This document shows, one piece after another, positions 5,500 to 43,856 of a stretch of DNA of 64,000 bases. The stretch covers positions 1 through 64,000 of the forward strand of contig NZ_FWXS01000010.1 of assembly GCF_900176425.1 (NCBI RefSeq), in the 5' to 3' direction. Position 1 is the first letter of the stretch. Every line of letters begins with the position of its first letter. The translations under genes and the position numbers were made by a program. The notes beneath the pieces are model-generated. The model was not told the DNA's origin. It was given only the letters and a program-made list of their open reading frames with translations, and made no database searches. Origin of the DNA: Moheibacter sediminis (lineage in GTDB: Bacteria; Bacteroidota; Bacteroidia; Flavobacteriales; Weeksellaceae).

Positions 5500-6432
5500 T
5501 TATTGAGCCAGCGAATATATGCATTGTACAGATTGTTCCACATGAAAAGTTTTAAATTTAAAATCTTCATTGCTGTAACAAATCACGCTTGGTTTTTCCG
5601 GTTTGGTAGAAATTCCCTCAACCTGACCTACTTGTGGCGTAAAACCTAATGGCAGGCTGAATTTATTGTTTTTTTCTTCAAAGAATTTTTCCGAACCTTT
5701 TTTCGGCGCGTCAAATCCTGAGATAAATGCAAATCCGTCTTTGGTGTAACCGATGAAATAAAATCCGTTGGTATTTGAAATCGGACTGGCGTCTATGTGT
5801 GCTCCCGTAACCATATAATTGGTTTTGAAAGTTTCAATCTTTTTGGCTTGCTGCTTGCCTGGTTTTATTTCCAAAGTATAATGTGTCGTTGCGTAATTAG
5901 TCCATTCTTTGGTAAATAAATGCAATTTCCCATTGTAATAAAACATGGCCTCACAATCAAAATTGGTGGCTTGATTTCCGGGATTGAAATTGGTTTGTTC
6001 AGGATAAGTAAATTCAATTTTCTGAGAAGTTACACTTAATTTGCTTTCATTTCCGATTTCATTTCTTTTGATGTAATAAATCGTCAAATCAGTGCGGTTC
6101 CCATTGTTATTTCCAAAATCTCCTATGAAAATATAGTCATCATTTATCGTCATTTCTTCCCAATCGCGGTTGATTGCATTTGAAATGGAAACTGTTTGAG
6201 CAATTTTTCCCGTTTCTGAATTGAATTTATAAATTTCCGCTTCGCCGCCACTGTCATTTAATCCCCAAAAGAATCCATCGTCGTATTCCAAGGCAGAAAT
6301 TTCTTTTAGTTTTTCCTGAAGCTTTACAGTTTTGATTTGGTAATTTTCGATGCTTAAAGTGTCAATTCTGTTTTGAGCCGAAATAATTTGCCCCAAAATC
6401 ATAAATAAAGTAAAAAAGAAAAATCTCATCAT
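5500..6432 (-). CDS. Secreted SdiA-regulated/esterase-like beta-propeller protein
   Basis: About 310 residues. I start it at the ATG at 6432 (MMRFFFFTLFMILGQIISAQ) rather than a longer in-frame start at 6477, because the shorter form begins directly with a signal peptide and a TACCTTTG promoter box lies at 6463-6456, which would put the longer start upstream of the transcript. After the signal peptide, short repeated strands such as ISALEYDDGFFWGLNDSGG and EMTINDDYIFIGDFGNNNG suggest a calcium- or sugar-type beta-propeller of the esterase-like or SdiA-regulated kind. No catalytic residues can be assigned. It ends 3 bases before the polyprenyl synthase start, suggesting co-transcription without an obvious functional link. 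Confidence 0.75.
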   Translation of the reverse strand: MMRFFFFTLFMILGQIISAQNRIDTLSIENYQIKTVKLQEKLKEISALEYDDGFFWGLNDSGGEAEIYKFNSETGKIAQTVSISNAINRDWEEMTINDDYIFIGDFGNNNGNRTDLTIYYIKRNEIGNESKLSVTSQKIEFTYPEQTNFNPGNQATNFDCEAMFYYNGKLHLFTKEWTNYATTHYTLEIKPGKQQAKKIETFKTNYMVTGAHIDASPISNTNGFYFIGYTKDGFAFISGFDAPKKGSEKFFEEKNNKFSLPLGFTPQVGQVEGISTKPEKPSVICYSNEDFKFKTFHVEQSVQCIYSLAQ

Positions 6433-6490: not shown

Positions 6491-7672
6491 TTAAGGCATG
6501 AGATTGCGCACGCGTTTTGCCAATAAAATGTGTTTTCCGGAATTGCTTTGTGTAAAAATCAAAGTTTGTTCAATTCCTTCTTTAATTTTGTATTTTTTTC
6601 GGACGGCTTCGGTGTTAAGAGGATAATTTTTGACCAACAAATGAAAAGCTTGTTTTTCGATTTCTTTTTTAGGATTTTTTAATTCTTCTATAACTTCAAA
6701 AATCTTTCCTGGAAAAGATTTTATTAATTCATTTGATGTATAAAGATGTGAATTGACGTGTATTTTTTTCAGGTTGAATTTTTCTCCGATCAATTTAAAA
6801 GCACCCGATTTTAAAATCGAAGCGCTTGGTTCATAAATGAATTTCTGTGGTTCAGAAAATGTTGAATTTGTTGCAGATTCTTCATTCCAATTGAATTCAA
6901 AATCAGGTTGGTTGGATTCCAGATTTACCGCTTTGATTTTTGGATTAGAATTCAAATCTTTCTTACAAATTATTAATAATTCCTTGACTTCATTTTTTAC
7001 AGCAATGATGTATATTTCCTGAATCTGTGGGATTTTTTCAATGGTCGATTTCAAATCTAACAAAGGCGAAAGTTTGATCAAAACCGTTTCTGAACGCAGA
7101 AGAAATTCATCTATCCAATCCAAAATATTCGGTTCCAAATCTTCCAAAATCACTTTTCGCTGCGATTCAATTCTACGCGAAGGATCCAAATAAATTACAT
7201 CCCATTTCAATTTTGGATTTTCGCTGAAATATTTTTCAAATTCTGAATTGATGTAATTTAAATTGTTTTGATTTAATATTTTATAATTGTGTTTTGAAAT
7301 TTCAACCAATTCCGGATTTCTTTCCAAAGCAGTAACATCATTAATTTTTTGCGCAAACCCAAATGAGTCAATTCCCATTCCGGCAGTCAAATCGATTAGA
7401 GATTTCCCTTTGACGATTTCAGATTTGTATTGGGAAGTTGCCCAAGATGAAGCTTGTTCCAAATTAATGGATGGCGGAAAATAAATTCCTTCAGGTTCAT
7501 TTAAAAAGGGGAATTTGAATTTAGAAATTTGTAAACCTTTGATTTGATGTGCTAATTCTGACGAAGAAACTCCCGAAAAAGGAGATTTTTGTAAAGAAAT
7601 TTTCCGAAAATTCTGGTTTTGGTTTTCTCGGAGATATTCTTGAATTTCGGGTTGTAATAAATTTTGATTCAT
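6491..7672 (-). CDS. THUMP-like domain class I SAM-dependent methyltransferase
   Basis: 393 residues. The central Rossmann methyltransferase core has motif I DLTAGMGIDSF near residue 95 and the acidic strand-2 end ALERNPELVEISKHN, followed by a motif-IV region YLDPSRR near 165. The DPSRR form resembles enzymes that act on RNA or exocyclic amines, so an RNA substrate is plausible but unproven. The C-terminal third (KKIHVNSHLYTSNELIKSFPGK onward) corresponds to the THUMP-like domain found fused to these methyltransferases in Bacteroidota. It starts 51 nt from the plus-strand toxin-antitoxin operon and is divergent from it. No methyl acceptor is known to me for this family. Confidence 0.85.
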   Translation of the reverse strand: MNQNLLQPEIQEYLRENQNQNFRKISLQKSPFSGVSSSELAHQIKGLQISKFKFPFLNEPEGIYFPPSINLEQASSWATSQYKSEIVKGKSLIDLTAGMGIDSFGFAQKINDVTALERNPELVEISKHNYKILNQNNLNYINSEFEKYFSENPKLKWDVIYLDPSRRIESQRKVILEDLEPNILDWIDEFLLRSETVLIKLSPLLDLKSTIEKIPQIQEIYIIAVKNEVKELLIICKKDLNSNPKIKAVNLESNQPDFEFNWNEESATNSTFSEPQKFIYEPSASILKSGAFKLIGEKFNLKKIHVNSHLYTSNELIKSFPGKIFEVIEELKNPKKEIEKQAFHLLVKNYPLNTEAVRKKYKIKEGIEQTLIFTQSNSGKHILLAKRVRNLMP

Positions 7673-37018: not shown

Positions 37019-38506
37019 TCAATACTCAATCTTCGACTGATAAAATTCTTCTCTTGGCAATTCTTTCTCGACCGGATAATCTTCCGTAAAGCATCCGAAA
37101 CAATGATTTTTAGAACCCAATATTTCAATCAAATTCGGAACCGATAAAAAATCAAGCGAATCAACCCCAAGATAAACCGCCAATTCCTTATTATTCATAT
37201 TTGCAGAGATCAAATCTTTTTTCGTCGGCATGTCAATCCCCAAAAAACAAGGCGCAATGATAGGCGGCGAAGCACTTCTGAAATGAATTTCTTTCGCTCC
37301 TGCTTCTTTCAATATTTTAATCAATAATTTACTAGTCGTTCCACGCACAATAGAATCATCCAAAATCACCAATCGTTTACCTTTGATTTTGCTTACGATA
37401 GGATTCAACTTAAGATTCACCACACGTTCGCGCATTTCCTGCGAAGGAACGATGAACGAACGGCTCATGTATCGGTTCTTTACCAAAATCGGCTCAAACG
37501 GAATACCCGAAGCATTCGAAAATCCAATCGCAGAAGGAACTCCTGAATCCGGAACACCAATTACAACATCAGCATCCACAGGCGATTGTTCAAACAATTT
37601 GCGGCCACTTTCGACACGCAAGTCATAAATTTCCCGACCCTGGATATTGGAATCAGGACGCGCAAAATAAATATATTCGAAAGCACAAATCCTTTGTCTC
37701 GACGGTTGTTCAAGCGAATAAGAATGCAACCCATCTTTATCCGCAACTACAATTTCTCCGGGTTCTACATCACGCAGAAATTCTGCGCCAACTGCATCCA
37801 AAGCACAGCTTTCCGAACTGAAAACATACGTATCGTCATCCATTTTACCGATACATAAAGGACGAATTCCGTTCGGATCACGAAATGCAGCCAATGAATT
37901 TTTAGTCAATAATAAAACCGAATAAGCACCTCGAATTTCTTTCAATCCCAATTGAATTGCTTCCTGCACCGTCAAATGCGAATGCCTTTGAATCGAGCGC
38001 AAAATAACTTCTGTATCAGAAGTCGCAAGAAAAGGAAGTCCCTCTTTTGCCAATTCTTGCTTGAGTCCTTCGATATCGATTACATTTCCGTTGTGTGCAA
38101 TCGAAAAGTGTGGTTTACCATAATAATTCACAGCATATAATGGCTGAATATTTTTTGAGCTTCCACCACCCGCAGTCGTGTAACGTGTATGTCCGATGGC
38201 AGCATTGCCCTGAAATTCTTCAATTTCTTCGATATTTTTAAAAACATCCAACACCAAACCTGCGGATTTATAGGTTTTGATATTTCCATCTTTGAGGACT
38301 GAAACGCCGGCAGCTTCCTGCCCACGGTGCTGCAATGCAAACATACCAAACTGCGTAAGAGAAAATGTGTCGATGTTTCGCGGGGAGTAAATTCCGAAAA
38401 CACCGCATTCTTCTTCCATGCTGTCCAAAGTATCTTTGAAAGCGGTTTTAAGAAAGTTTCTTTGGTAAAACTGAGAACTTTTCGATTTGTTTTTACAAGT
38501 GTTCAT
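37019..38506 (-). CDS. purF: Amidophosphoribosyltransferase
   Basis: 495 residues. Catalyses the first step of purine synthesis, PRPP plus glutamine to phosphoribosylamine. The nucleophilic Cys34 is in EEECGVFGIYS, so the ATG at 38506 implies a 33-residue propeptide; an ATG at 38419 would leave only four residues. QHRGQEAAGV, IGHTRYTT, and the PRPP loop VILDDSIVRGTTS are present. Four Cys suited to a [4Fe-4S] cluster, as in Bacillus PurF, are seen: RICAFEYIYF, APCFLGID and CFGCFTEDYP. It is the last gene of the operon, 29 nt after purC, and is followed by a terminator. Confidence 0.95.
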   Translation of the reverse strand: MNTCKNKSKSSQFYQRNFLKTAFKDTLDSMEEECGVFGIYSPRNIDTFSLTQFGMFALQHRGQEAAGVSVLKDGNIKTYKSAGLVLDVFKNIEEIEEFQGNAAIGHTRYTTAGGGSSKNIQPLYAVNYYGKPHFSIAHNGNVIDIEGLKQELAKEGLPFLATSDTEVILRSIQRHSHLTVQEAIQLGLKEIRGAYSVLLLTKNSLAAFRDPNGIRPLCIGKMDDDTYVFSSESCALDAVGAEFLRDVEPGEIVVADKDGLHSYSLEQPSRQRICAFEYIYFARPDSNIQGREIYDLRVESGRKLFEQSPVDADVVIGVPDSGVPSAIGFSNASGIPFEPILVKNRYMSRSFIVPSQEMRERVVNLKLNPIVSKIKGKRLVILDDSIVRGTTSKLLIKILKEAGAKEIHFRSASPPIIAPCFLGIDMPTKKDLISANMNNKELAVYLGVDSLDFLSVPNLIEILGSKNHCFGCFTEDYPVEKELPREEFYQSKIEY

Positions 38507-38535: not shown

Positions 38536-39261
38536 TTATTTTTTTAATGCTTGCTGAAGTCTATTGTAAACTTCATGGTAAGCTTCGGAAACTTCTCCCA
38601 AATCTCTTCTGAAACGGTCTTTGTCCAGTTTCTTCAAAGTATCTTTGTCCCAAAGGCGGCAAGTATCCGGACTGATTTCGTCTGCCAATATGATGTTTCC
38701 TTCAGAATCCTTGCCAAATTCAATTTTGAAATCGATTAAAATCAAATTCGCTTTCATGAACAAATCAATCAAAGCTGCATTGATTTTATCGGTCATTGCA
38801 TACATCAATTTCAATTCGTCATAAGTTGCTGCGCCCAGTAAAACTGCGTGGTGGTCATTGATCAATGGATCTCCCAATTCATCTTTTTTGTAACAAATAT
38901 CAAAAATGGTTACCGGAGATTTTGCTCCTTCTTCCAATCCTAAACGCTGTGCCATGCTTCCTGCAACGTAGTTTCTGACAACCATTTCAATCGGGATGAT
39001 GTCCACTTTTTTAACCAATTGTTCGCGTTCATTCAAAGTTTCGATGTAATGTGTCTGAATTCCTTTTTCAATCAGATAATTGAAAATCAAAGTTGAAATT
39101 TTGTTGTTCATTTCTCCTTTGTCGGCAACCGTTCCGCGTTTTTGCGCATTGAATGCTGTTGCATCATCTTTGTAATATACGATGACCAAATTAGGGTCTT
39201 CCGTAGTGTAAACCTGTTTGGCTTTGCCTTCGTATATGAAATCTTTTTTTGTGTAGCTCAT
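38536..39261 (-). CDS. purC: SAICAR synthase
   Basis: 241 residues, typical. Joins aspartate to CAIR with ATP in step 8 of purine synthesis. It opens KKDFIYEGKAKQVYTTEDP (the ATP-grasp-like glycine loop EGKAK) and contains PIEMVVRNYVAGSMAQRLG, LADEISPDTCRLWD and DKDRFRRDLG near the end, the SAICAR synthetase signatures. It lies 5 nt after the stop of a lipoprotein gene and 29 nt before purF. Control is presumably from the purL riboswitch. Confidence 0.97.
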   Translation of the reverse strand: MSYTKKDFIYEGKAKQVYTTEDPNLVIVYYKDDATAFNAQKRGTVADKGEMNNKISTLIFNYLIEKGIQTHYIETLNEREQLVKKVDIIPIEMVVRNYVAGSMAQRLGLEEGAKSPVTIFDICYKKDELGDPLINDHHAVLLGAATYDELKLMYAMTDKINAALIDLFMKANLILIDFKIEFGKDSEGNIILADEISPDTCRLWDKDTLKKLDKDRFRRDLGEVSEAYHEVYNRLQQALKK

Positions 39262-39266
39262 TGTGT

Positions 39267-39956
39267 TTATTTTGCTATTCGTTTAATTTTTCCAGTTTTA
39301 TCATTAACTATAATGCTATCTACAAATTCATTATGATTACCATAAATAGTATTATCTGCAATAAAAATAACGTCATTATCATTAAAAATGATGGAATCAC
39401 ATTGGTTGAATTTTATTTCATCACTATACAATTCTTCATTCTTCCATAAATATTTGCCATTATCTAAATCAACCTTTCCGACAAAACCCAAAGTTGAAAT
39501 ATACACTGCATTATTCTCAATCACAGGTTGCCCTAAGTTAAAAGCATAGGCATATAATTTCCAATTATTTATTTGAGTTTTACGGTTAATTGATTCAACA
39601 AAACTTGCAGCATCTCCAGCAGCATTTTCTGTGTAATAAACAATCAAATTATCTTTATAAAACTGTAAATATGCTTTTTCAATAGTAAGTTCAGATTGTA
39701 GTTTATATTTGGCAATTAATTTCGATTTCTCTTTTTGATCAATTTCTCCCGTTGGATAAACAATAAACTCATAATTGTTCAATGTTGCATATAGTGTATC
39801 TTCTTCTACCTGATACTCTTTTTTACTTTTCGTACTTACAGGATATGTTAAGGCTTTTTCACTAATAGGCAATTTTATTTCCGTGCCTTTGTTTTCCTTA
39901 GTTTTACATGAATATAGTAGTAGAACACAAATGGATATTATTATCAATTCTTTCAT
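39267..39956 (-). CDS. Hypothetical lipoprotein between purL and purC
   Basis: 229 residues. A lipoprotein signal ends at LLYSC (Cys16). The mature part has no enzymatic motif; short repeated strands such as GQPVIENNAVYISTLGFVGKVDLDNGKYLWKNEELY resemble a PQQ-type beta-propeller blade, and NDNDVIFIADNTIYGNHN follows. It sits tightly in the purine operon: its start is 6 nt from the purL stop and its stop 5 nt from the purC start, so it is surely cotranscribed. Nothing links it chemically to purine synthesis. It may be a recent insertion into the operon or a lineage-specific envelope protein. Confidence 0.8.
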   Translation of the reverse strand: MKELIIISICVLLLYSCKTKENKGTEIKLPISEKALTYPVSTKSKKEYQVEEDTLYATLNNYEFIVYPTGEIDQKEKSKLIAKYKLQSELTIEKAYLQFYKDNLIVYYTENAAGDAASFVESINRKTQINNWKLYAYAFNLGQPVIENNAVYISTLGFVGKVDLDNGKYLWKNEELYSDEIKFNQCDSIIFNDNDVIFIADNTIYGNHNEFVDSIIVNDKTGKIKRIAK

Positions 39957-39962
39957 ATTTAA

Positions 39963-42900
39963 TTATAAAAAATATTCTACTCCATTCTTAAATATATTCA
40001 TCACTTCGATGCCCGGAATGTTCTGGAACAGTCCTTCTTCAAATCTTTCCGGATGCCCCATTCGTCCGAAAATCTTTCCGCAAGGACTTACAATTCCTTC
40101 TATTCCTAAAACCGAACCATTTGGATTGTGAGGCATTTCAGAAGCGATTTTCCCTTCTAAATCTATGAATTGCGTTGCAATTTGATTTTGCTCAAATAAA
40201 ATTTCTAGATTCTTTTCGTCTGCCATGAATCTTCCTTCACCGTGCGAAAACGGAATCCAATATTCCTGTCCAGCCATCCCTTTCAACCAAGGCGAATGGG
40301 AATCATTTACTCTTACTTTTGCCAATTGCGTAATGTGTCTTCCGATTTGGTTGAAAGTCAAAGTTGGTGTGTCTTCATCCAATTCTCTGATTTCGCCGTA
40401 AGGCAACAATCCTGATTTGATCAATCCCTGAAAGCCATTACAAATTCCCAAAACCAATCCGTCGCGTTCCAATAATTTATGGACGCTTTCTTTGATTCTC
40501 TCGTTTCGCAAAACGGTCGCAATAAATTTTCCTGAACCGTCCGGCTCGTCTGCAGCGGAAAATCCACCCGGAAGAAACAAAATTTGAGAATTGTCAATCG
40601 CTTTTGAATAAGCAACCACCGTTTCTTCAATATCTTTTTCTGAAAGGTTTTTGAAAACAATTATTTCTGTTTCGGCGCCTTCTTTTCGGAATGCTTTCGC
40701 ACTGTCGTATTCAGAATTCGTTCCCGGAAATGATGGGATGAATACCTTTGGTTTCGAATTTCGAAATTCGAGGTTCGAAATTCGTTTTTCAGATTTTGAA
40801 TTATTTATTAATTCTTTGCCAGCTTCGAGCTTCGAGCTTTGAGCTTCGTATGGGAATAATTCAGCAAAGGTACTTTTCCAGGCGGATTTTGTTTCTTCCA
40901 TTGAAATTTGAATTCCATTGAAATTAAATTCTTTCGATGAATTTGTATTTCCTAATAAATAGTAATTGGACTGAATTTCAGTTGGAATATTTAATTCTTC
41001 TGAATGTTCAACAACAATTGCAGCCGGATAATATTTCATCAAATCCAAATTAGAATTGACTTCAAATCCGATTTCATTTCCAAAAGCCATTAACGCTAAA
41101 GTTTCTGCAATTCCTCCTGATTTCACCGTCATGGCAGAATTGATGATGGAATTATTTGAATGAATGGTTTCAAAAATTTGTTTCAGATTTAATTCATCAA
41201 ACAAATAATCATCCTTTAATTCAGGAATGAAAACCGAAATTTTTGAATTTGTTTTCTGGAAAGTTGATGAATTAATTCTATCAGATTTATTCGGAGCGAC
41301 CGCGAAAGAAATCAAAGTCGGTGGAACGTCAATTTCTTGATAGCTTCCACTCATGCTGTCTTTTCCTCCAATTGCAGGGATGCTCAATTGTTTTTGAGCT
41401 TCAATCGAACCGAGCAAAGCAGCAAAAGGTTTTCCCCAGCGCTCTGCTTCGTCGCGTAGTTTTTCAAAATATTCTTGCAAAGTCAATCGGATTTCTTTGA
41501 AATCTCCGCCTCCTGCAACAATTTTCGCAACGCTATCCATCACCGCGAAATAAGCGCCATGATAAGGCGACCAATAACTTAATTGTGGATTGAATCCAAA
41601 GCTCGCCATCGAAACAGCATTTGTAAATCCGTCCGTTGGGAATTTCTGAACGCTGATGTCTTCAGGTGTACTTTGTGTTTTTCCGCCAAAAGCATTCAAA
41701 ACCGTGCTTCTTCCTACATTGTTGTCGAACATTTCCACCATTCCTTTTTGGGAAGTGTGATTTAATTCTTTCAATAATTGAATGAAATTTTCTTTTGAAA
41801 ATTCTTTGGACTCAAACGGATTTAATTTTTCTCCATTTTGAATTGTGGCTTGCGCTTGTTTGCGAACGCCATTTGTATCAAGAAATTTTCTGTCCAACTC
41901 GACAATTTTATTTCCTTTCCACCACATGATCATGGTTTCGTCATCGGTTACATTAGCAACAATAGTTGCTTCTAAGTTTTCAATTGCTGCAAACTCAATG
42001 AATTTTTCCGCATCTTTTGATTCTACCACGACTGCCATTCTTTCCTGAGATTCAGAGAGAGCGAGTTCCGTACCGTTGAGACCGGTATATTTGAGTGGTA
42101 GTGTGTCCAAGTTAATATTTACGCCTCTTGCAATTTCCCCAATGGCTACCGAAACTCCCCCTGCACCGAAATCATTGCACTTTTTGATGAGTGCCAAAAC
42201 TTCTTTATTTCTAAACAATCGCTGAATTTTTCGTTCCACGATTGCATTTCCTTTTTGTACTTCTGAACTTAATTCTTCCAGTTTTTGTCCATCATGTGTT
42301 TTAGACGAACCCGTTGCACCACCGACTCCGTCGCGTCCTGTGCGACCGCCTAAAACGATTACTTTGTCGCCGCCGGTGGGTTCTTCACGGCGTACCCAAT
42401 CTTTTTTCACAGCTCCTGCAACGAAACCGACTTCCATGCGTTTGGCTTTGTAGCCCTCGTCGTAAATTTCTTTGACGTAAGTTGTAGCCAAACCGATTTG
42501 GTTTCCGTAAGAACTGTATCCGTTTGCAGCTTCTTTGGTAATTTTTCGCTGGGGTAATTTTCCCGGAAGTGTATCTTCGATTTTTTCCAAAGGATTTGCC
42601 GAACCTGTCACGCGCATCGCTTGGAAAACATAAGCACGACCGGACAAAGGATCACGAATCGCACCACCCACACAAGTCGAAGCACCTCCAAATGGTTCCA
42701 CTTCGGTTGGGTGGTTGTGTGTTTCGTTTTTGAATTGTAGAAGCCATTCTTCTTCAACCCCATCCACATCAATCGGGACAACTATGGAACACGCATTGAT
42801 TTCTTCAGAAATGTCAATGTTGTTTACTTTCCCGGTTTTGCTTAAATATTTTCCCATGATGGTCGCGAGATCCATCATTCGGATTGGTTTTGTGATGTTT

Positions 42901-43670
42901 AATTCTTCTCTTAATTTTAAATAATAATTAAAAGTATTTTGTAAAGTTTCTTTGAATTGATTTTCGAATTTGATGTGGGTGATTTCCGTTTCGAAAGTGG
43001 TGTGGCGACAATGGTCAGACCAATAAGTGTCTAAAACTTTCAATTCAGTTTCGGTTGGGTTTCGTTGGATGGATTGAAAATGATTTTGAATGAATTCTAA
43101 ATCGTCCATTCCCATCGAGAATCCGAATTCTTTATGTAAATTTTCTAATTGGTTTGAATCAAAATTTAAAAATCCATCAATCGTTTTAACAGGTTTAATT
43201 TCAGTTGATTCGCTTAAAATTAATTCATTCAAATTTTTCTCACGCGCTTCAATCGGGTTGATGAGATATTTTTTTACTTTATCTAAATCCGATTCTGAAA
43301 TTCCTTCGAAAACATACAAATATCCTGATTTTACCTTTGCTTCACGCACGCCAACTAATTGCAAACATTGGTCAGCAGAATCTGCACGTTGGTCGTATTG
43401 ACCGGGAAGAGGCTCAGTTGCGAAGTTCGAAGTTCGAGTTTCGAAGTTCGCTAAAATTTCTTCGAAATTTTGGTGAACAATATCCGTTACAGGGTCTGCA
43501 AAAACCTGAAAAAGAGTTTCTTCTAATTGATTTTCAGTGATTTCAAAAAGGTCGTAAATGACAAAAACCTTGCACGAAATTCCGCTGACAAGGTTTTGTA
43601 ATTCTTTCGTGACTTTCTGGGAGTGAATGTCAAATTGAGATTTTTTTTGAATAAAAATTCGTTTATTCAT
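39963..43670 (-). CDS. purL: Phosphoribosylformylglycinamidine synthase
   Basis: 1235 residues from the ATG at 43670; a TTG six codons upstream (43688) is less likely. One large enzyme joins glutamine amide to FGAR with ATP. QYDQRADSADQCLQL near residue 97, ETHNHPTEVEPFGGASTCVGG, FGAGGVSVAIGEIARG and the C-terminal glutaminase FLPGGFSAADEPDGSGK...LGICNGFQGLIKSG...PFSHGEGR are all present. The first linker and the join before the glutaminase domain carry TTCGAA-type repeat patches in frame. It heads the operon, downstream of the riboswitch and promoter. Confidence 0.97.
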   Translation of the reverse strand: MNKRIFIQKKSQFDIHSQKVTKELQNLVSGISCKVFVIYDLFEITENQLEETLFQVFADPVTDIVHQNFEEILANFETRTSNFATEPLPGQYDQRADSADQCLQLVGVREAKVKSGYLYVFEGISESDLDKVKKYLINPIEAREKNLNELILSESTEIKPVKTIDGFLNFDSNQLENLHKEFGFSMGMDDLEFIQNHFQSIQRNPTETELKVLDTYWSDHCRHTTFETEITHIKFENQFKETLQNTFNYYLKLREELNITKPIRMMDLATIMGKYLSKTGKVNNIDISEEINACSIVVPIDVDGVEEEWLLQFKNETHNHPTEVEPFGGASTCVGGAIRDPLSGRAYVFQAMRVTGSANPLEKIEDTLPGKLPQRKITKEAANGYSSYGNQIGLATTYVKEIYDEGYKAKRMEVGFVAGAVKKDWVRREEPTGGDKVIVLGGRTGRDGVGGATGSSKTHDGQKLEELSSEVQKGNAIVERKIQRLFRNKEVLALIKKCNDFGAGGVSVAIGEIARGVNINLDTLPLKYTGLNGTELALSESQERMAVVVESKDAEKFIEFAAIENLEATIVANVTDDETMIMWWKGNKIVELDRKFLDTNGVRKQAQATIQNGEKLNPFESKEFSKENFIQLLKELNHTSQKGMVEMFDNNVGRSTVLNAFGGKTQSTPEDISVQKFPTDGFTNAVSMASFGFNPQLSYWSPYHGAYFAVMDSVAKIVAGGGDFKEIRLTLQEYFEKLRDEAERWGKPFAALLGSIEAQKQLSIPAIGGKDSMSGSYQEIDVPPTLISFAVAPNKSDRINSSTFQKTNSKISVFIPELKDDYLFDELNLKQIFETIHSNNSIINSAMTVKSGGIAETLALMAFGNEIGFEVNSNLDLMKYYPAAIVVEHSEELNIPTEIQSNYYLLGNTNSSKEFNFNGIQISMEETKSAWKSTFAELFPYEAQSSKLEAGKELINNSKSEKRISNLEFRNSKPKVFIPSFPGTNSEYDSAKAFRKEGAETEIIVFKNLSEKDIEETVVAYSKAIDNSQILFLPGGFSAADEPDGSGKFIATVLRNERIKESVHKLLERDGLVLGICNGFQGLIKSGLLPYGEIRELDEDTPTLTFNQIGRHITQLAKVRVNDSHSPWLKGMAGQEYWIPFSHGEGRFMADEKNLEILFEQNQIATQFIDLEGKIASEMPHNPNGSVLGIEGIVSPCGKIFGRMGHPERFEEGLFQNIPGIEVMNIFKNGVEYFL
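40752..40785. repeat. TTCGAA-rich repeat inside purL (before the glutaminase domain)
   Basis: A patch of TTCGAA and TTCGAAATTCGAGGTTCG-type strings on the plus strand. On purL's strand it codes for part of SEKRISNLEFRNSKPK in the linker ahead of the glutaminase domain. Similar to 20307-20328 and 43420-43451. Confidence 0.7.
40822..40848. repeat. AGCTTCGAG repeat inside purL
   Basis: Three tandem AGCTTCGAG-type units (one with TTTGAG), encoding AQSSKLEAGK in the linker 36 nt from the previous patch. A variant of the same repeat family, or an unrelated short duplication. Confidence 0.5.
43420..43451. repeat. TTCGAA-rich repeat inside purL (before the QYDQRADSA segment)
   Basis: GCGAAGTTCGAAGTTCGAG followed by TTTCGAAGTTCGC: an imperfect palindrome. 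On purL's strand it codes for ANFETRTSNFAT just before the conserved PGQYDQRADS segment, so it lies in a variable loop. Confidence 0.7.
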
Positions 43671-43731
43671 ATATAATTTATAGTTCAAAGTTAACTACGA
43701 ATGAAGCAAACGAAATAAATTCCGAATACTT

Positions 43732-43798
43732 CACTTGTAGAGGAAAATTAACGGTTTTCCGTAGAAACGCCCGGCCATATTCCGGGTTTATACAAATG
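43732..43798 (-). promoter_or_regulatory. Purine riboswitch aptamer, guanine class, in the purL leader
   Basis: Reading the minus strand 5'-3': P1 CATTTGTA (43798-43791) pairs with TACAAGTG (43739-43732), with one G-U. P2 CCCGG/CCGGG encloses L2 AATATGG; J2/3 contains GTTTCTAC; P3 GGAAAA/TTTTCC encloses L3 CCGTTAA. The L2-L3 kissing pairs (GG in L2 with CC in L3) and the binding-pocket bases corresponding to U22, U47, U51 and position 74 are present; position 74 is C (43740), the guanine/hypoxanthine type. Position 73 is U where A is usual. It lies 62 nt upstream of the purL ATG. A downstream GCTTCATT (43707-43700) could pair with AGTGAAG (43735-43729), giving a switch that does not use a T-run. 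Confidence 0.9.
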
Positions 43799-43825
43799 AA
43801 ATAATTGGTTTAACACAATAAGTGG

Positions 43826-43856
43826 CAAATTTACGATTATTAATTATTTTTTTCAA
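43826..43856 (-). promoter_or_regulatory. Textbook Bacteroidota promoter of the purL operon
   Basis: On the minus strand TTG (43856-43854), 20 nt, then TAAATTTG (43833-43826), matching -33 TTG and -7 TAnnTTTG with normal spacing. It is 28 nt upstream of the riboswitch aptamer, so the aptamer lies near the 5' end of the leader. Confidence 0.85.

Follow-up and report, generated by a model that had tools for sequence, protein, structure and literature searches.

The leader of the purL-lipoprotein-purC-purF operon of Moheibacter sediminis carries a purine riboswitch aptamer which, judged from its sequence, is by class an ordinary guanine-I element in an uncommon host group. Guanine riboswitches are best known from Bacillus-like bacteria. 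The aptamer class itself is the standard, known guanine-I type; the new elements are a predicted platform acting on the start codon in the genus of the window (the window being the whole 64,000-nucleotide, or 64-kb, stretch analyzed here) and its apparent replacement by a different platform in sister genera. The aptamer, its conservation before purL, two complementarities in the leader and the mutually exclusive folds that they allow were all recovered computationally. The reading that we favor, and regard as reasonably probable on these models, is a guanine-I riboswitch that mediates guanine-dependent repression of purL translation.

A cmscan of the window against Rfam 15 recovered a single RNA family above its gathering score: the purine riboswitch RF00167, at 70.3 bits (gathering cut-off 37 bits; E 2.4e-10), in a match that spans model positions 1-102 of 102 and is not truncated (Table 1). 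A search of the same genome returned no second RF00167 match. The preliminary description had proposed a guanine-class purine aptamer from its three stems, J2/3 junction, kissing-loop and pocket bases and specificity C, and had suggested a run of Infernal with RF00167: the full-length match bears this proposal out, and every one of these elements is seen in the sequence. Positions 43732-43798, on which that description centered, are the exact P1-to-P1 core of the aptamer. The arms of P1 (43798-43791 with 43739-43732) are extended to 13 bp in the folding model; those of P2 are 43786-43782 with 43774-43770 (5 bp), and those of P3 43760-43755 with 43747-43742. The pocket bases U22, U47, U51 and C74 are all present, as are the kissing-loop doublets, GG in L2 and CC in L3. 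A passage of PMC9295807 names U22, U51 and C74 as pocket bases, and position 73 is not among the ligand contacts that it names. The element had further been called a divergent member of its class: the U73 (43741, minus strand) and the 5-bp P2 on which this was based are both real, but U73 is not an oddity. It departs from A73, which in RF00167 is a consensus letter and not a defining contact, in 10 of 31 aptamers, the window's included, and is thus no sign of an odd copy.

Table 1. Features of the purL leader and operon in the window, with the basis of each assignment.
Feature	Positions	Strand	Basis
Whole RF00167 aptamer, purine (guanine-type)	43718..43815	-	cmscan
P1 5' strand, CAUUUGUA	43791..43798	-	cmscan, sequence
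P1 3' strand, UACAAGUG	43732..43739	-	cmscan, sequence
P2, CCCGG/CCGGG, with loop L2 AAUAUGG	43770..43786	-	cmscan, sequence, pair counts
J2/3, GUUUCUAC, carrying pocket bases U47 and U51	43761..43768	-	cmscan, sequence, alignment
P3, GGAAAA/UUUUCC, with loop L3 CCGUUAA	43742..43760	-	cmscan, sequence, pair counts
C74, specificity base, guanine type	43740	-	cmscan; C in 31/31 aptamers including the window
Candidate anti-P1 strand, CUUCAUUCGUAG; copies the P1 5' side, complements the P1 3' side (43729-43740)	43695..43706	-	duplex test
Candidate anti-start segment, UUCGUUUGCUUCAU	43701..43714	-	duplex test (p 0.003), folding
-7 box of flavobacterial sigma-A promoter, TAAATTTG	43826..43833	-	sequence; consensus TAnnTTTG
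TTG, possible -33 element, 20 bases upstream of the -7 box	43854..43856	-	sequence
purL, phosphoribosylformylglycinamidine synthase, start ATG 43670	39963..43670	-	TIGR01857, 1664.7 bits
Lipoprotein-like protein, 229 aa, between purL and purC	39267..39956	-	N-terminal sequence by eye
purC	38536..39261	-	TIGR00081
purF	37019..38506	-	TIGR01134

As the preliminary description had supposed, the aptamer lies between a promoter and the purL operon. The three purine genes match NCBIfam equivalogs above their cut-offs, and the 229-aa protein matches no Pfam or NCBIfam family. The purL start is the ATG at 43670; the TTG at 43688 of the open reading frame list is a mechanical call. By the -33 consensus, the TTG upstream of the -7 box is a possible -33 element. 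A flavobacterial -7 box (consensus TAnnTTTG in a passage of PMC9723704) precedes 10 of the 11 aptamers of the window's genus and Apibacter, the exception being locus L005, and transcription is predicted to start at about 43821 (minus strand), which would be some 18 bases before the extended P1.

The aptamer is kept upstream of purL in four genera or genus groups, an expectation of the preliminary description that thus held: it stands before purL at 5 loci of the window's genus (g1) and, under their probable genus names, at 6 of Apibacter (g16), 14 of the group Empedobacter/Faecalibacter/Algoriella/Chishuiella (g21; hereafter Empedobacter) and 3 of Weeksella/Vaginella (g28). In an alignment of 29 of the 31 aptamers (A1; without L019 and L026; 25 distinct), no copy varies at U22, U47, U51 or C74, nor in the L2 GG and L3 CC doublets. 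Pairing holds in 92.0% of the alignment cells (34.8-48.8% in slid registers); among 500 shuffles, none reaches the observed value for four of the five measures and 54 do for the fifth. Covariation of the stems had been suggested as a check, and paired changes are indeed found: two-sided changes occur in 11 of 20 pairs, 10 of them in P2 and P3. Since P1 hardly varies (5 of its 8 pairs never do, and one shows a two-sided change), the pairing support comes mainly from P2 and P3.

Counting the window's own genome each time, RF00167 matches are present in 9/59 genomes of a sample of relatives; in 30/320 Weeksellaceae genomes from 5 of 33 genera, including two genomes of a further genus (g11) with a U74 aptamer; in 3/395 genomes of an order-wide sample; and in 5/395 genomes of a phylum-wide sample, one of these being the window's genome and the other four holding loci L032-L036. 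The larger searches ran with stricter filters, under which weak matches can be lost. The three order-sample genomes all belong to the Weeksellaceae, so the element is not a general flavobacterial regulator; the preliminary description did not know it as a standard regulator of purine genes there. Scanning named genomes for the pattern yielded 20 stretches from Bacteroidota, 10 from Clostridia and 3 from Vibrio, 33 in all. We also built a covariance model from the 29 aptamers (g1, g16, g21, g28) and ran it on 43 purL loci and on L039. Thirteen of the 43 purL loci score 85-95 bits, and nothing above 14.2 bits is found at the other 30. The purL start itself is missing from one of these 30, L088; the other 29 include no fewer than 298 bases upstream of it. 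L039, which comes from g11 and is no purL locus, reaches 47.8 bits. At four positive loci the aptamer also casts a weak shadow match on the opposite strand (27.6-34 bits).

In a quick PurL tree with 38 rows, two state changes account for where the aptamer is present, so that it is stably inherited, gain and loss being indistinguishable on this tree. The only genome of the window's genus without an aptamer match (G003) has a purL match from residue 509 only, and in three Apibacter genomes (G062, G064, G068) aptamer and purL matches are both absent. The PurL of G038 (locus L108), which belongs to a different family within the order, is 64% identical and groups with the PurLs of g1, g21 and g28, apart from the full-length PurLs of Weeksellaceae lacking the switch (49-57%); the aptamer is absent there, and the sequences make a transfer of purL between families possible. 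The Weeksellaceae copies are likely already in the Rfam full alignment, and may already be listed in the surveys of Singh and Sengupta 2012 and McCown 2017. Our literature search for purine riboswitches in flavobacteria or Bacteroidota found no paper; for guanine riboswitches in Bacteroidetes it led to PMC9788692 and to PMC8872408, the latter of which, in the part bearing on this, concerns 2'-dG-II. A passage of PMC2211319 on metagenomes reports a single purine riboswitch, before an unrecognized gene.

The preliminary description had seen no T-run after the aptamer and had left room for control at translation. Indeed no run of at least 6 U occurs within 14 nt after P1 in the window's leader, and a U-run terminator directly after P1 was rejected as a candidate; control at translation gains support, for the window's genus and from modeling, from a leader able to sequester the start codon. 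This candidate expression platform is an addition of the present analysis. It consists of two overlapping complementarities sharing the motif CUUCAU: the anti-P1 strand, and the anti-start segment, which complements AUGAA (43670-43666) and AAACGAA (43664-43658) at the start of purL. The distance from P1 to the ATG is 58-62 nt in the leaders of the genus and 61 nt in the window. We compared each of the 28 purL leaders with 300 dinucleotide shuffles in duplex tests, both members of the identical pairs L018/L019 and L025/L026 being kept. In the window the anti-P1 pairing has a z of -4.2, with 0/300 shuffles as good. Pairing of the P1 3' strand with the downstream leader gives p 0.000, 0.000, 0.000, 0.007 and 0.003 in the window's genus (5/5 at or below 0.007) and 0.003, 0.000, 0.030, 0.073, 0.033 and 0.000 in Apibacter. 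Pairing of the leader with the purL start gives p 0.003, 0.047, 0.043, 0.017 and 0.163 in the genus, below 0.05 in 4/5 leaders and not significant in L007 (the last value); in Apibacter it gives 0.010, 0.003, 0.257, 0.367, 0.120 and 0.053, with 4/6 not below 0.05.

Constrained folding predicts mutually exclusive anti-P1 and start-sequestering helices in 5/5 leaders of the window's genus. Accessibility was computed for unconstrained and constrained folds of 26/28 leaders (without L019 and L026), and folds with P1 forced were compared with shuffles in 21/28 (without L019, L023, L025, L026, L028, L030 and L038b); the folding model is without kissing loops and ligand energy. In the genus the predicted unpaired fraction of the region from -5 to +15 is 0.14-0.38 with P1 enforced and 0.54-0.61 with P1 blocked. 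The drop in this accessibility on forcing P1 is 0.24-0.44 (shuffle means 0.02-0.06) and is reached by 0, 0, 0, 2 and 0 of 60 shuffles, so that the region closes in all five leaders. The same region closes with P1 in 5/6 Apibacter leaders (at most 3/60 shuffles), L004 being closed in both P1 states; the Apibacter AUG triplet itself is predicted to behave off-pattern, moving in the opposite direction in L012. In the window the modeled accessibility of the start codon is 0.17 in the free fold, 0.02 in the bound state and 0.35 with P1 blocked. Because the unconstrained fold already favors P1 and a closed start, a switch would need co-transcriptional kinetics, which weighs against a purely thermodynamic one, and even when open the start is predicted to sit in a weak hairpin in this genus.

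Comparison among sequences adds less to the anti-P1 helix: over 5 sequences 90.8% of its cells are complementary, with no two-sided change, and it is not distinct from shuffles of its own 3' letters. In the first 12 purL codons (43635-43670, minus strand; L078-L081, from four genomes of the genus) 8/9 conserved codons are identical, versus 29% over the gene, with 4/799 windows as high; synonymous identity at the gene start is likewise raised in two of three sets without the switch (22/847 and 17/853 windows; 233/852 in the third).

The sister genera appear to use a different platform. A run of at least 6 U lies within 14 nt of P1 in 14/14 Empedobacter and 6/6 Weeksella/Vaginella aptamers, versus 0/5 in the window's genus and 0/6 in Apibacter, which suggests termination-type control in the first two groups. 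The Empedobacter and Weeksella leaders give p below 0.05 for start pairing in 1/17 and for anti-P1 pairing in 2/17, which leaves them outside the start-sequestration model. By constrained folding of 10 of their leaders the region closes at no more than 3/60 shuffles in L017 only, and the AUG alone closes in L010, L037b, L018 and L031. Between aptamer and purL, an alignment of 12/14 Empedobacter-group leaders (A3) contains a conserved block near TTTGTTTGTTGATGTAG, with a possible hairpin bearing a TTGAACC-like loop. Weeksella/Vaginella carry two aptamers (L040:8475-8789, minus strand; L037:1546-1645 and 5989-6087; L038:1530-1629 and 6722-6820): in Vaginella both stand before purL at a distance of 217 nt from each other, and both have a -7 box of their own; in two Weeksella genomes they are separated by 4-5 kb of opposite-strand open reading frames (by eye, a histidine kinase and a response regulator), one aptamer being left behind mpl and not directly followed by any co-oriented gene.

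From the aptamer and the two complementarities we infer ligand binding, its repressive direction, translation as the controlled step and an effect on the downstream genes, along the following lines. In the absence of guanine or hypoxanthine, the downstream copy (43695-43706) of the P1 5' side would take up the P1 3' strand (43729-43740) in a hairpin, and the region around the purL start would be more open. Ligand would keep P1 paired with its own 5' strand and free the copy; the copy and the preceding UUCGUUU could then pair with AUGAAUAAACGAA at the purL start, upon which purL translation would stop and expression of the downstream genes would fall along with it. A passage of PMC6847099 describes Flavobacterium johnsoniae mRNAs without Shine-Dalgarno sequences, whose start-region structure tunes initiation, and members of the Bacteroidetes that lack such sequences. 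Given this, pairing of the start codon itself would be a sensible design. A wider proposal we advance tentatively: that the platform is one for ribosomes independent of the Shine-Dalgarno sequence, with the purL start codon and first codons held in a helix until P1 opens and the leader matched by complementarity to the very codons found there (CGA in the window's genus, AGA in Apibacter), and that, with U-runs in the sister genera, one aptamer serves translation and transcription within one family.

The same riboswitch might instead act on transcription, through Rho-dependent or structure-induced termination in the leader. Translational repression can expose mRNA to Rho, and a U-run directly follows P1 in 20/20 Empedobacter and Weeksella/Vaginella aptamers; its presence in 0/11 aptamers of the window's genus and Apibacter, together with a leader of only 61 nt between P1 and the ATG that is complementary to the start codon, makes this route unlikely for the window, though it deserves serious consideration. 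It is rather improbable that the aptamer is an ON switch raising purL, or that its ligand is a different purine compound: a passage of PMC9295807 records close variants of this architecture that bind adenine, 2'-deoxyguanosine and xanthine, but the window keeps U22, U51 and C74 with a junction free of insertions, purL is biosynthetic, so that repression by guanine is to be expected, and in the folding models the start closes once P1 forms. Least credible of all, and very improbable, is a degenerate or recently acquired aptamer without function. Its patchy occurrence (5/33 genera of the Weeksellaceae) would fit this; the high score, the paired changes in P2 and P3, the pocket invariant in 29 aligned copies, the mere two state changes on the PurL tree and the joint absence of aptamer and purL in 3 Apibacter genomes all speak against it.

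The aptamers conserved before purL in Weeksellaceae suggest a way in which this family controls purine synthesis. They also offer a natural test of riboswitch action on ribosomes that are independent of Shine-Dalgarno pairing, and add a second population on the guanine scaffold to the phylum of the 2'-dG-II riboswitches.

Among the variants of this scaffold, the xanthine-II type is described in a passage of PMC9295807 as having U51G and insertions in J2/3 and J3/1; this identity was rejected for the window, which keeps U51 and has no insertion in either junction. The adenine riboswitch has the same fold and is marked by U74; C74 excludes it for the window. A purine aptamer with U74 is found in g11 (G015 and G059; loci including L009, L027 and L039): at L039:3381-3478 (minus strand) the gene that follows at 150 nt is not purL but one for an EamA-family transporter, and at L027 the contig ends too early after the aptamer to show a gene. 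The g11 element may be a Bacteroidota adenine riboswitch that goes with a purine exporter. The 2'-dG-II riboswitches of Bacteroidota share with the window both the three-stem scaffold and the phylum, but the window keeps the guanine junctions: 2'-dG-II identity was rejected because its J2/3 is GUUUCUAC, not altered as in L032-L036 (GCCUCCAC and similar). These five RF00167 matches, from four genomes of another Bacteroidota family, have altered, 2'-dG-II-like junctions; of their downstream proteins two were scanned, those of L032 and L036, and both have Endonuclease I domains. A passage of PMC8872408 reports endonuclease I among the genes associated with 2'-dG-II riboswitches in Bacteroidetes, and junctions and domain together fit assignment of L032-L036 to that class. 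The closest known counterpart is the guanine-I riboswitch of the Bacillus subtilis xpt-pbuX and pur operons, the latter having it before purE (PMC10912719, in a passage on that operon). With it the window shares the three-way junction, J2/3 GUUUCUAC, the kissing-loop bases, C74 and, in the case of pur, a purine biosynthesis operon; it differs in its Bacteroidota host, in U73, in having no U-run after P1, in its predicted start-codon pairing and in an operon that opens with purL.
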